Origin: Enterobacteriaceae bacterium UBA2655
GTDB lineage: Bacteria; Pseudomonadota; Gammaproteobacteria; Enterobacterales; Enterobacteriaceae
DNA length: 21,559 nt
Direction: 5' to 3'
Assembly (NCBI GenBank): GCA_002359495.1
Contig: DENB01000033.1
Location: 1 to 21,559, forward strand
A model generated the notes under the pieces. It was not told the origin of the DNA, searched no databases, and saw only the letters and a list, made by a program, of their open reading frames with translations. Every line of letters starts with the position of its first letter. The first letter of the stretch is position 1. Positions 3,985-12,510 of the stretch are shown here, piece by piece. The position numbers and the translations under genes are program-made.

Positions 3985-5856
3985 TTACTGAAACGCGTAG
4001 CTTACCGTTAACCCGACGCTGTAGTTGCGCCCCGGCGCCGGTTCGAAATAGCGGCCGTTGCTTTCATTGACGATCACCGAACCGACATAGTTGCGGTCGA
4101 ACAAATTATCGACGCGGCCGAAAAGATCCATCGTCCAGTCGCTGATCTGCCATTTATACCCGCTGTTCAGCGCCGCCACGGTATACGAAGGCGCCTGAGC
4201 GTCATTGTCGTCATCCGCTTCGATATGGCTCATATACCGCAGCTCCGCTCCGGCGTACCAGCCCTGTTCCGGCGCGTACGCCAGTCCGGCATACGCCATA
4301 TTGCGGGCGATGCCGGGGATGCGGTTGCCGTCGCAGCTGTCGTCGCCGCAGGCGTTGCTGCGATAGCGCGCGTCCAGCAGGGTATAAGCCACCTTTAGCC
4401 GCCAGTTCCAGCCGAACTGCTGATCGATGCCCAGCTCCAGGCCGCGACGGCGCGTTTCGCCGGCGTTTTTATAGGTGGTGCGGCCGCCGCTGCTGCTGTC
4501 CGCCACAATTTCATCCTGGGTATCGGTCTGAAACAGCGCGGCGGTCAGCAGGCCGTTGCCGAGGCGTTTTTTCGTGCCCAGTTCCAGGGTATCGCTGGTG
4601 GCGGGTTTCAGCCCGATATTCAGGCCCGACTGGCCGTCGGAACGGTAGGAAAGCTCATTGATGGTCGGCGTTTCAAACCCGCGTCCGGCGGAGAACCAGG
4701 CGTTCCAGCCGTTATCGATAGCGTATTTCAGCGCGGCGGCGGGCAGCCATTTGTGATAGCGCGCATCGCCGCTGTCGTCGCCGTTCGCCAGATAGTCGTC
4801 GTTGGAATCGAAGTTCACCGTGCTGAAGCGCACCCCGGCATCCAGCGACAGCTTATCGGTAAGCTGCCAGGCGGTTTGCAGGTAAGGATCGAGGTTCCAC
4901 ATCAGGTTGCGCTCGTTGCGGCGCAGATTTCCCTGCGTGCCGTAATCGGTTACGCCGTTGCTGACGGTGAAGTTTTCATAGCCTTTGCGGCGTTCGGTCA
5001 TGGTTTCATAGTCCAGCCCGCCGGTGAACGTTACCGGCAGCGTGAACAGCATATCGCGGTGGGTCCAGCGCGTATCGATCCCCTGATAATGGCGCGTCAG
5101 GTCGATCACGCCGCCGGGATGGTTGCGGTTGCTCTGCACACTGGCCGGAATCGACTGGAACTGGGTGGTTTCGCGGATTCCGGCATACATCATCACGCTG
5201 AGATCGTCGTTTTCGCTCATCTGTCGCTGATAATGCAGGCCGCCCTGCGTCTGATCGACGGTTTTACGGGTGTTATACAGGGTCACGTTGCTGACCACCT
5301 GGCGCGGATTGTCATGCCACTGCGCTTCCGTCAGACCGCCCGGATCCTGCGCTTCGACATGAACGCTGTTGAACAGCAGCGTCAGGGTGCTGACATCATT
5401 CAGACGCACGCCGAGCTTCGCATTGCCCAGATTTTTCTGCGCTTCGCTGTGATCGCGGTAGCCGTGGGTGGTAAAGCGCGAGGCGGAAACCGTGTAGTTC
5501 ACATCGCCCGCCTGGCTGCCGTCGCCGGTCGCGCCGCTCGCCTTAACGCTGTTGCGCCAGCTGCCGTAGCTGCCGTACCAGCTGCTCGCCTCCAGCGTGG
5601 GCGGCTGCTGGCCGGTTTGCGTTTCGACGTTGATCACGCCGCCGGAGGCGTTGCCGTAGAGCGCGGAGAAGGGACCGCGCAGCACTTCAACATGATCCAC
5701 CGAATTGATATCGATATTGGAGGTTTGCCCCTGGCCGTCGGGCATAGTGGCGGGGATGCCGTCGACATACATGCGTAATCCACGCACGCCGTAGGTTGAG
5801 CGCGAACCGAAGCCGCGCACCGAAATTTGCAGATCCTGCGCATAATTTTGACGGTT
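3985..5856 (-). pseudogene. pqqU: TonB-dependent receptor PqqU (YncD), 5' end removed by prophage insertion
   Basis: About 624 codons remain, from NRQNYAQDLQISVRGFGSRS at the prophage junction to the C-terminal FGRVDNLFDRNYVGSVIVNE and ...SYAFQ. The plug-domain hallmarks VRGLRMYVDGIPATMPDGQG and VEVLRGPFSALYGNASGGVI are intact, and the 22-strand barrel region appears complete. E. coli YncD/PqqU is about 700 aa, so the signal peptide, TonB box and first ~75 residues are missing. Upstream of the junction the frame meets a TAG within five codons. ATG at 5820 could start a 611-aa product, but it would lack a signal peptide and could not reach the outer membrane. The family imports pyrroloquinoline quinone and also serves as a phage receptor. 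The missing 5' end should lie beyond the other prophage end. Confidence 0.88.
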
Positions 5857-9549: not shown

Positions 9550-9708
9550 TCAGTGGATGGTGATGTTGCGGTTCAGTTCCTCAGCCATGCGCTGAGCTTT
9601 AATCGGATTGCCGACCAGTTCGCCATCAGGGGCGATCCAGCCGCGCAAAAGTTTGGAGTAGGGGAAGATGATCACGCCTACCCGGATATCGTCGTTAGGC
9701 TTTTGCAT
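9550..9708 (-). CDS. Small phage protein of unknown function (52 aa)
   Basis: It begins MQKPNDDIRVGVIIFPYSKL at the ATG at 9708. The frame is open upstream to 9948, but that part lies inside the next gene in another frame, so the short version is more credible. It overlaps the upstream gene by 14 bp, as is common in this operon. It contains a WIAPDGELVGNPIKAQRMAE segment that looks folded rather than random. No known function. Confidence 0.55.
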   Translation of the reverse strand: MQKPNDDIRVGVIIFPYSKLLRGWIAPDGELVGNPIKAQRMAEELNRNITIH

Positions 9709-10213
9709 TCTGTTGCTCCCGCTTTGCCTTATCGTACTCACTACCCAAAATCTCGATCGCTCCAGCGTTTGCTTCCGGGGTGGCCGAAGTTTCAACGTAG
9801 ATCGCGTCGCCATGGCGGAAATAGGTGATACCGGTAAAAAGCAATGTTCCCCAGTCCAGGCCGATGAGCGGAAAGAATCCTCCTTTCTCAACGCCGAATT
9901 TAGGCCGTTGTTCGTTCCAGAGCGCCTGGAGTGCTTTATGTTCTTCAATCAGCCCTTTTGGCGCCTTGCTCTTGGGCCAGGTGGCAAATCCTGTCCGGCT
10001 GGTGCCTTTGGTCCACAGCTCGGCAGAGACATACATAGCGCCTGAAAATTTGACGCCGTAGAACGATTCACGAATTCCGTCTGAGGTGAAAACCGCCTTT
10101 CCGCCAAACAGTGCGGCAAAAGAATTACCTGCGGCGCGCAGCTGCTCGGCATCGGCTTGAATTTTTTCCCAGCCGGCCAGCGCTGCATCGCTGGTGAATT
10201 TAAAAAAGCTCAT
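9695..10213 (-). CDS. Phage protein of unknown function, first long gene of the pL operon
   Basis: The product is 172 aa, starting MSFFKFTSDAALAGWEKIQA at ATG 10213 with GGAGA 9 nt upstream. An upstream in-frame ATG at 10276 would add 21 unlikely residues. It is a soluble mixed alpha/beta protein with many aromatic residues (LWTKGTSRTGFATWPKSKAP, FGVEKGGFFPLIGLDWGTLL). The aromatic and basic pattern is seen in several lambdoid left-arm proteins, but I cannot give it a family. It is the first substantial gene after a ~580-nt leader, so expression should depend on antitermination or on the state of that leader. Confidence 0.65.
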   Translation of the reverse strand: MSFFKFTSDAALAGWEKIQADAEQLRAAGNSFAALFGGKAVFTSDGIRESFYGVKFSGAMYVSAELWTKGTSRTGFATWPKSKAPKGLIEEHKALQALWNEQRPKFGVEKGGFFPLIGLDWGTLLFTGITYFRHGDAIYVETSATPEANAGAIEILGSEYDKAKREQQNAKA

Positions 10214-10322: not shown

Positions 10323-10349
10323 AGCCCGATTACTCCACACAAAAAGTAG

Positions 10350-10529
10350 TTGTGGTGCCGGGTGCCTCCCGGTGCTCTAAGTCGGCTGTTCAAAGAGCGG
10401 ATTGTAGACTTGAAGCCGTTAAGTTTTAGCCTTCCGCGTTCGCACTGACGCCATCACCACAACGGAGAGAGCACTGTCAGAACGCCTCTGGCACTATACC
10501 CACCATCAGCCAATGCTCTTGCCGTTGTG
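10350..10529 (-). ncRNA. Candidate structured or antisense RNA region (P4 CI / P1 C4-like arrangement)
   Basis: Three segments of the leftward transcript share complementarity. Segment C is CACAACGGCAAGAGCA (10529-10514). Segment B is GTGCTCTCTCCGTTGTGGTG (10474-10455). Segment A contains AGAGCAC (10378-10372) and CACCACAA (10357-10350). B pairs with C over 8+6 bp with a 2-nt interior mismatch, and B also complements both blocks of A (7 and 8 bp). B thus has two competing partners, one upstream and one downstream. This recalls phage P4, where seqB of the CI RNA pairs with flanking seqA and seqC, and the C4 RNA of P1. The A blocks are in the same order as in B, so they cannot pair together as one simple helix. 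Function is inferred. Confidence 0.45.
10387..10399 (-). promoter_or_regulatory. boxA-like element in the pL leader
   Basis: The minus strand reads CGCTCTTTGAACA, close to lambda boxA (CGCTCTTA) and rrn boxA (TGCTCTTTA). It is followed 14 nt downstream by the 15-nt hairpin CCGGG-AGGCA-CCCGG (10372-10358), the size of a boxB stem-loop, although the loop is not lambda-like and the spacing is longer than in lambda nut sites. It could recruit NusB/S10 for antitermination. This is from sequence resemblance only. Confidence 0.4.
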
Positions 10530-10540
10530 AAAAAGGGCGG

Positions 10541-10660
10541 TTAAACCGGTAGAACACTATCTTCCTTCCTCCAGAGGTTGGTTGAAGACCCGGAGAAACC
10601 GCCAAAGCCCACAGCAATTCTCAAAACACAGGGGCGTAAGCCAGACCCCACCCACCGCAT
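10541..10660 (-). CDS. Possible 39-aa leader peptide
   Basis: The ATG at 10660 follows AAGGTGGA and opens MRWVGSGLRPCVLRIAVGFG, ending SVLPV just before complementary segment C of the leader. The ribosome site is good, and peptides of this style (VGFGGFSGSS) seem familiar from prophage leader regions. Whether it is a true protein or only translated for regulation is unknown. Its stop lies 12 nt before segment C, so ribosomes finishing it could affect folding of the downstream RNA. Confidence 0.35.
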   Translation of the reverse strand: MRWVGSGLRPCVLRIAVGFGGFSGSSTNLWRKEDSVLPV

Positions 10661-10803
10661 TCCACCTTCACAACACCCAGATCACCATCACAGACCAGCT
10701 CAGCTTCAGGGAAGAGGCACAGAAACGTTAACAGGTCCCAAAACTAGTGTTGGATATGCTTTTGATGAGATTCATAATGGACACTCTAAATTTTCAATAA
10801 GGA

Positions 10804-10833
10804 AATATACACATATTGTGATTTATTTGTCAA
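10804..10833 (-). promoter_or_regulatory. Early-left promoter pL
   Basis: On the minus strand a consensus -35 TTGACA (10833-10828) and -10 TATATT (10809-10804) are 18 bp apart. The start would be near 10797, directed into the leftward operon. Both hexamers are overlapped by CI operators, as in lambda. Confidence 0.85.
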
Positions 10834-10875
10834 ACACGATTTGTGTTATATTGCCATTAAACACGATATGTGCTT
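10807..10875. promoter_or_regulatory. Left operator OL: three CI/Cro sites
   Basis: Three 17-bp sites share a CACRA-N-TTGTG-like core: ATACACATATTGTGATT (10807-10823), AAACACGATTTGTGTTA (10832-10848) and AAACACGATATGTGCTT (10859-10875). Their centres are 25 and 27 bp apart. The first covers the pL -10 and the second overlaps the -35. The same core occurs three times at OR. Confidence 0.85.
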
Positions 10876-12445: not shown

Positions 12446-12510
12446 TAACACGAAGCGTGATTGCTGTATCTACACGTATTGTCATTGACTCTTAATCACG
12501 AATTGTGTGT
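12446..12510. promoter_or_regulatory. Right operator OR: three CI/Cro sites
   Basis: The three 17-bp sites are TAACACGAAGCGTGATT (12446-12462), CTACACGTATTGTCATT (12470-12486) and AATCACGAATTGTGTGT (12494-12510). Their centres are exactly 24 bp apart, as expected for cooperative dimers on the same DNA face. The site nearest cI covers the probable pRM -10, and the site nearest cro covers the pR spacer and -10. The middle site deviates most from consensus. Confidence 0.85.

Follow-up and report, generated by a model that had tools for sequence, protein, structure and literature searches.

Within the pL leader of a lambdoid prophage lies an RNA element in which one segment, B, can pair either with an upstream segment, C, to form helix P0, or with a downstream segment, A2, to form helix P1, the latter closing a pseudoknotted domain of the STnc100 type. 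As judged from sequence comparison, the arrangement recurs in many related viruses including lambda and is a real, uncharacterised RNA device. We tentatively read the leader as carrying a conserved two-state RNA processing module, and rate the chance of this reading as a little short of even. The window, meaning the whole stretch of 21,559 nucleotides analysed, is a lambdoid prophage segment according to a profile and sequence reading of its gene content, with excisionase-like, phrog_2314, CI-like, Cro-like, CII-like, antirepressor and Q-like genes, and an integrase gene named from its own sequence. The features of the leader are the following.

10804 to 10833, minus strand: pL promoter (TTGACA, 18 nt, TATATT; 11 of 12 consensus positions in a simple sigma-70 scan)
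10810 to 10872, no strand assigned: CI-operator-like repeats over and upstream of pL, three matches of CACAWATCGTGTTT
10530 to 10617, minus strand: DicF-like hairpin and U-tract (10534-10530), read as a putative intrinsic terminator directly 5' of C (Rfam DicF 18.7 bits, E 0.35)
10511 to 10529, minus strand: segment C, 5' strand of helix P0, CACAACGG at 10529-10522 and AGAGCATTG at 10519-10511 (kept in relatives)
10455 to 10476, minus strand: segment B, CAGTGCTCT at 10476-10468 (P0 only), GTTGTG at 10463-10458 (common to P0 and P1) and the 5' strand of P1 at 10463-10455
10344 to 10471, minus strand: whole STnc100-related domain (model R2, described below, 79.6 bits, E 6.9e-21; Rfam STnc100 26.5 bits, E 0.0018)
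10436 to 10451, minus strand: hairpin P2, GCGT 10451-10448 with ACGC 10439-10436 (from the fold of B to A2; 98.3% of alignment cells paired)
10383 to 10418, minus strand: P3 of an H-type pseudoknot, CGGCT 10418-10414 with AGCCG 10387-10383, weak in the window
10374 to 10398, minus strand: helix PK, crossing P3, GCTCT 10398-10394 with AGAGC 10378-10374, including most of block A1 (window z 1.1, p 0.05)
10358 to 10372, minus strand: hairpin P4, CCGGG-AGGCA-CCCGG (invariant in 20 of 20 rows of alignment A1)
10349 to 10357, minus strand: segment A2, 3' strand of P1, CACCACAAC
9695 to 10213, minus strand: phrog_2314, function unknown, the first full-length gene 3' of the element (E 3.6e-49)

The leader is about 580 nt long (584 nt in the shuffle tests), with its start assumed near 10797 and its end at the gene 10213-9695. 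Weaker repeats similar to those at pL adjoin cro at 12449-12510, and at up to three mismatches CACAWATCGTGTTT has eight matches in the window (three at pL, three near cro and two elsewhere) as compared to 2.33 expected. The position of these repeats suggests that they are putative CI operators, and pL is probably repressed in the lysogen. The simple sigma-70 scan listed no minus-strand promoter between pL and B, leaving pL as the only upstream one listed, and no terminator-like site was listed by the simple scan between A2 and the gene. The hairpin preceding C resembles K-12 dicF in shape and position; in a relaxed Rfam search its 10617-10535 stretch on the minus strand stayed below the DicF (RF00039) gathering score of 48, and it is absent from the output of the terminator scan, which covers loops of 3-8 only. 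Its appearance by eye, together with the non-significant Rfam match, suggests a terminator. Two further observations concern the flanks of the element. Between pL and the hairpin, at 10775-10621 on the minus strand, a small frame resembles a conserved protein of about 51 aa that is intact in relatives such as L031 and L136 and split over two frames in the window. Between A2 and the gene, at 10345-10213 on the minus strand, we noted by eye a direct repeat, GTGTGGAG, and a hairpin that recurs in relatives whose downstream region is similar.

A preliminary description of this DNA had proposed that B pairs with C over 8+6 bp or with two downstream blocks, A1 and A2. Its segment letters and coordinates proved correct on re-reading of the window, and the C:B helix turned out to be stronger than proposed: CACAACGG (10529-10522) pairs with CCGTTGTG (10465-10458) and AGAGCATTG (10519-10511) with CAGTGCTCT (10476-10468), giving 8-9 + 9 bp and -27.4 kcal/mol for both parts together (p 0.01 for C:B alone against 100 shuffles). 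Of the two downstream blocks, only A2 stood. Helix P1 joins GTTGTGGTG (10463-10455) to CACCACAAC (10357-10349) over 9 bp with -15.7 kcal/mol, whereas the B:A1 duplex reaches -11.2 kcal/mol, and a 7-mer complementary to B occurs in 72 of 500 shuffled downstream stretches. Because the 7-nt match of block A1 is at chance level, it is not evidence for pairing with B; this block was rejected as a partner also because it is conserved as a pseudoknot strand, and in most leader relatives the partner of this position is a stretch some 15-20 nt further upstream. The remark that both blocks could not pair at once is settled accordingly, A2 being the only conserved partner of B. The 584-nt leader itself contains two triples in which overlapping helices of at least eight Watson-Crick pairs have a B segment in common, namely C:B:A2 and 10674-10667 with C with B; of 300 dinucleotide-shuffled versions, 5 contain such a pair of helices. 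We rejected the extra helix of 10674-10667 with C, whose outer segment lies inside a small coding frame and was judged by eye not to be conserved in relatives. When folded without C, the window closes P1; when C is included, the pseudoknot-free optimum is C:B. The lowest-energy fold of 10620-10345 keeps C:B and leaves both P1 and the DicF-like hairpin unformed.

Helix P1 encloses hairpin P2, the pseudoknot P3/PK and hairpin P4. We analysed this domain in alignment A1, which holds 20 of 21 leader elements, with the window included and L033 left out. In the proposed structure 90.0% of the cells are paired, as compared to 31-41% when the partners are slid, and 48 cells are changed on both sides versus 16.5 in shuffles that, like those of the pseudoknot and C:B tests, ignore relatedness among the elements. 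P3 carries both-side changes at 10 of its 11 pairs. Further pair types did not exceed the shuffles, 233 of 500 of which reach the count. PK is paired in only 77.9% of cells, a low figure partly because some rows are one column out of register. Hairpin P4 carries no covariation information because it is invariant in alignment A1; in the Qin prophage it reads CCTGG-AGGCA-CCAGG, changed on both sides with respect to the window, and Qin P3, PK and hairpin P4 are all readable (both by eye). To test the pseudoknot, we searched every element for crossing helices that end near hairpin P4 and scored the best pair against 60 dinucleotide shuffles. Of the leader elements, 18 of 19 reached p <= 0.05, and of the late ones 49 of 76. 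The window is among the weakest leader pseudoknots, and the best crossing pair departs from the P3/PK arrangement in the leader elements L030 and L085 and in late ones such as L020, L023 and L057. According to these comparisons, P1, P2, P3, PK and hairpin P4 are conserved with covariation in alignment A1.

Segment C is likewise kept. From 33 loci, 24 distinct copies passed the pattern and were examined for upstream complementarity to B against 100 shuffles each; C:B pairing reached p <= 0.05 in 21 of them, the exceptions being L044 (0.11), Qin (L160; 0.78) and the late copy on the minus strand of L049 (0.69). L080 passes, but its helix covers the hexamer only in part. At least 87 elements with P1 pairing plus either the hairpin P4 motif or the lambda signature were collected (64 leader, 17 late and 6 of lambda type), of which L354, at least, looks spurious; P1 statistics on this set are conditional because P1 pairing was a selection criterion. 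In 56 distinct non-late elements, we scored the B hexamer against the DNA immediately 5' of the upper C helix, which had been located independently: it was fully complementary in 45, at five of six positions in 9 and at fewer in 2, as compared to about 10% full matches at random places. Matched C/B/A2 triples comprise CACAAC/GTTGTG/CACAAC, CGCAAC/GTTGCG/CGCAAC and CACAAT/ATTGTG/CACAAT, and from lineage to lineage the outer portion of C:B differs in both strands. Where B reads GTTGCG or ATTGTG, A2 has changed to match, pairing here being a selection criterion, and so, mostly, has C. In L455 and L482, C does not track B; L237 and L243, counted as GTTGCG from the letters of their A2, are fully matched by C in the collection, though not by the hexamer criterion, and many GTTGCG cases are close relatives, leaving few independent events. 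With these counter-examples included, comparison of relatives shows that C:B pairing is conserved besides B:A2, so that the mutual exclusion proposed for the pL leader is upheld, with covariation. Many B segments contain TGCTCTTT, which we take to resemble boxA; we rejected this motif as the conserved feature, as other lineages substitute covarying sequence.

We folded 54 elements that have a full C hexamer no more than 200 nt away. The optimal structure pairs the hexamer with A2 in 32 of them, with C in 14 and with neither partner in 8, the spread to be expected if the switch is poised. A rival reading is a cis-acting attenuator, in which the choice between C:B and B:A2 sets polymerase or ribosome entry into the operon, possibly biased by a protein or a second RNA and with no role in immunity. 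That the two mutually exclusive pairings are conserved, one being optimal in some elements and the other in others, would agree with such a device, as would its placement in leaders, the U-tracts or short hairpins directly 5' of C in relatives, and the terminator-like hairpins seen by eye after A2 in several loci. However, neither state was seen to include a terminator hairpin or a ribosome-binding site, terminator-like hairpins lie 5' of the element in some loci and 3' in others, and the next frame of at least 55 aa begins anywhere from 5 to 922 nt after A2 over 26 loci (one without such a frame in the DNA examined). We therefore regard attenuation as rather unlikely. As a separate observation made by eye, where the sequence before C ends in CCGGCA, CAGGCA or GGAGCA, a short hairpin replaces the U-tract and resembles hairpin P4 before A2.

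The family relationship of the domain was established with model searches. No Rfam family, C4 and isrK included, matched the window at gathering score, so that the likeness proposed earlier found no model behind it; in a relaxed search, 10461-10351 on the minus strand matched STnc100 below its gathering score of 47. Model R1, built from alignment A1, scores the window at 94 bits, which is not independent because the window belongs to that alignment. We therefore rely on R2, built from 18 leader elements with the window and L085 left out, which gave the window the score listed above; calibration of both models is rough. R2 further scored L085 at 85.0, Qin at 76.7, e14 at 80.7, L395 at 86.7, L403 at 85.9 and L415 at 98.1 bits, the stretch upstream of terB in P7 at 89.9 bits, and SfV at 97.4, Salmonella phage 118970_sal3 at 99.9 and L163 at 97.7 bits, the last three being the same as or close to training rows. 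The leader-built models also recover STnc100 copies recognised by Rfam, R1 with 58.9 bits at G000:C101 (Rfam 58.3) and R2 with 53.4 bits in L197 (Rfam 79.9). By these sequence-based measures the element shares fold and homology with STnc100. The first of these copies (L200; G000:C101:25905-26039, minus strand) is a true STnc100 in the window's own genome, above the Rfam cut-off and near an anti-repressor gene. Weak extra R2 matches (20-26 bits) occur near strong ones at L163:1785-1899, L163:2062-2132, L210:699-769 and L415:9813-9955, partly beside tRNA genes. A tRNA or tmRNA identity was rejected, as ARAGORN finds none in seven loci, and tRNA labels near Vequintavirus matches belong to the adjoining tRNAs; Klebsiella DinR, derived from dinI mRNA, was set aside as unrelated.

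The shared fold invites the view that the leader embeds a small-RNA gene, the domain being cut from the pL transcript to act in trans like STnc100 or PasD, with C as a processing helper only. Passages in the literature state that an STnc100 copy was verified by Northern blot in EHEC (PMC5331693) and that PasD, related to STnc100, was found by RIL-seq, which captures Hfq-bound pairs (PMC13192938). Against this stand the simple sigma-70 scan, which found no promoter of its own for the domain, and the probable repression of pL in the lysogen. On balance we judge an embedded small-RNA gene unlikely, if still a serious contender.

The element is widespread. R1 matched 54 of 295 genomes of the family at E <= 0.001. 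A search with a strict cut-off, E <= 1e-13, and strict filters listed 2 genomes out of 394 from the order. The hairpin P4 motif occurs in at least 120 stretches of viral contigs, and 172 anchor hits in the collected loci, duplicates included, comprise 103 with the late STnc100 pattern only, 39 with the leader pattern only, 15 with both and 15 with neither. Of 5426 complete E. coli genomes, 1816 hold a stretch like the SfV element, 4077 one like that of Qin and 152 one like that of lambda, counted at a query coverage of at least 80%; the window's own leader was found at partial length in one E. coli genome, one phage record and two plasmids. Among the matches listed, 6 of 80 loci (e.g. L049, L051, L063 and L108, and also L026 and L027) hold two or three copies of the hairpin P4 motif; adjoining late copies are separated by some 0.25 to 3.3 kb and have separate promoter-like sequences by eye.

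We examined the genomic context by scanning 20 proteins from 15 of 26 loci. A CI-like repressor lies upstream of the element in L395, L403, L460, L476 and L452; L398 and L381 have Q upstream and a holin downstream, and in a Klebsiella phage the late form sits between Q and holin. Downstream of the element lies a DnaB-like helicase in L415; a tellurite gene is found in L163, Kil in L455 and a lipoprotein in L341, and L231, L438, L441 and L496 show families of unknown function only. In the loci examined, the genes that follow the element belong to pL, late, replication and accessory operons. This spread bears on the suggestion of a second, RNA-based immunity layer, by which an RNA made in the lysogen and carrying B would base-pair with newly made leader transcripts at C or A and stop their transcription. 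The order C-B-A indeed mirrors seqA-CI-seqC of phage P4, whose CI RNA, according to a passage in PMC4825925, pairs with seqA upstream and seqC downstream, and the element shares with phage P4 CI, phage P1 C4 and isrK the logic of one segment complementary to upstream and downstream partners. In contrast to this pairing logic, a match by sequence or model is missing: the window gave no C4 or isrK match at gathering or relaxed thresholds, and neither R1 nor R2 finds anything in phage P4 6500-11624 (L198). The same models find nothing in HK022 26000-40751 (L196), examined with the put antiterminator RNA of that phage in mind, which says only that this part is without the element. The simple scan listed no second promoter; with no promoter listed between pL and B and CI-operator-like repeats around pL, nothing suggests that the RNA is made in the lysogen. 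Moreover, recurrence before lysis, replication and accessory genes, kil and tellurite genes among them, argues against an immunity role, which we consider very improbable. As an observation apart, the prophage contig L060 combines a leader-class element (4100-4288, minus strand) with C4 and isrK RNAs. Recurrence at module borders in unrelated operons could alternatively mean that the element is a conserved patch at which phage modules undergo mosaic recombination, its structure being a by-product, and the CUS-3 record labels the stretch matching the region next to lambda's copy 'boundary sequence'. The P3 and P0 helices persist while their sequences change, which a DNA-homology role leaves unaccounted for, and we give that role scarcely any credence.

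A processed leader module fits better than P4-like immunity because the element precedes pL, late, replication and accessory genes. The B:A2-closed domain and the alternative C:B helix follow from the comparison with relatives, and we propose that polymerase passing the DicF-like terminator would first make C:B, after which A2 would displace C from the common hexamer. RNase III might then cut the long duplexes P0 and P1, separating the upstream DicF-like RNA from the operon message, which would keep a defined, structured 5' end; cutting may also set the STnc100-like domain free as a small RNA. The STnc100 genes of late regions, seemingly starting at B without C, could represent a freestanding form locked in the P1 state. 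The proposal draws on the Qin prophage, where, as passages in the sources put it, RNase III processing of dicBF mRNA yields the 72-nt DicF (PMC5069750) and the cut makes the 5' end of a 190-nt species (PMC10448788). The corresponding claim for the 3' end of DicF rests on a 1990 paper, known to us through citing passages. Counted from the annotated dicF start, the end of the 72-nt DicF falls at L160:3954, the ninth of 18 bp in Qin P1, and because this end would lie inside P1, P0 and P1 are putative processing sites in the window leader by analogy. To our knowledge, RNase III cutting is known only for the Qin element, which is without C and has an 18-bp P1. The two-state reading of the window appears weakened by its weak pseudoknot, by the pseudoknot-free fold preferring C:B and by the longer fold having neither P1 nor the DicF-like hairpin. 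With more reserve, we suggest that one pseudoknotted two-state RNA, C/B/A2 plus the STnc100-type domain, might serve lambdoid and P1-like phages generally as a leader module, whether the operon is a pL, replication, late or accessory one, lambda having the C/B/A2 part, with a regulated form that includes C and a freestanding small-RNA form without it; we think this generalisation could hold, yet would sooner expect it to fall short.

Compared to the named systems, the element is closest to STnc100 and PasD, with which it shares the closing stem P1, P2, hairpin P4 with its AGGCA loop and the crossing P3/PK helices, whereas the window scores below the Rfam threshold, is without a detected promoter of its own, sits inside the pL leader and has C added. 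The late form of STnc100 has a promoter directly 5' of B and a terminator 3' of A2 (by eye); the simple scan found neither in the window, where C precedes B. The structure line of the Rfam STnc100 model is nested, with PK drawn as a hairpin. One published table gives STnc100 without a function. The Qin dicF-dicB leader has the same order as the window, a DicF-type hairpin and U-tract, then the domain, then dicB; it differs in having no C and an 18-bp P1, while the window's resemblance to DicF is below threshold. Among the titles and abstract openings listed in literature searches, none concerns this leader element, although Faubladier and Bouche (1994), who reportedly surveyed dicF-related sequences in prophages, may cover part of it. 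In the lambda late leader, C (CACAACAGGTAAGAGCATTG), B (CAGTGCTCTTTCCGTTGTGCTG) and A2 (CAGCACAAC) follow in this order right after a U-rich terminator, which we take to be tR', and upstream of S, with p 0.01 for C:B; lambda C is identical over 20 letters to C of L032 and L415. Unlike the window, lambda has a body between B and A2 without hairpin P4, a C overlapping the end of the annotated orf-64 and one P1 pair flipped from G-C to C-G, and its scores are weak (R1 19.1 bits, E 0.0018; R2 18.7 bits, E 0.0023). The stretch from the lambda body to A2, B left aside, also occurs in Vequintavirinae tRNA clusters at about 83% identity. For the lambda late leader and dicF-dicB, the records annotate no RNA except dicF, and Rfam at gathering gives none except DicF. 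Two well-studied loci, the lambda late leader and dicF-dicB of E. coli K-12, carry related RNA architecture, STnc100 gains a likely tertiary fold together with a set of leader-borne relatives, and the element can be tested in laboratory strains.
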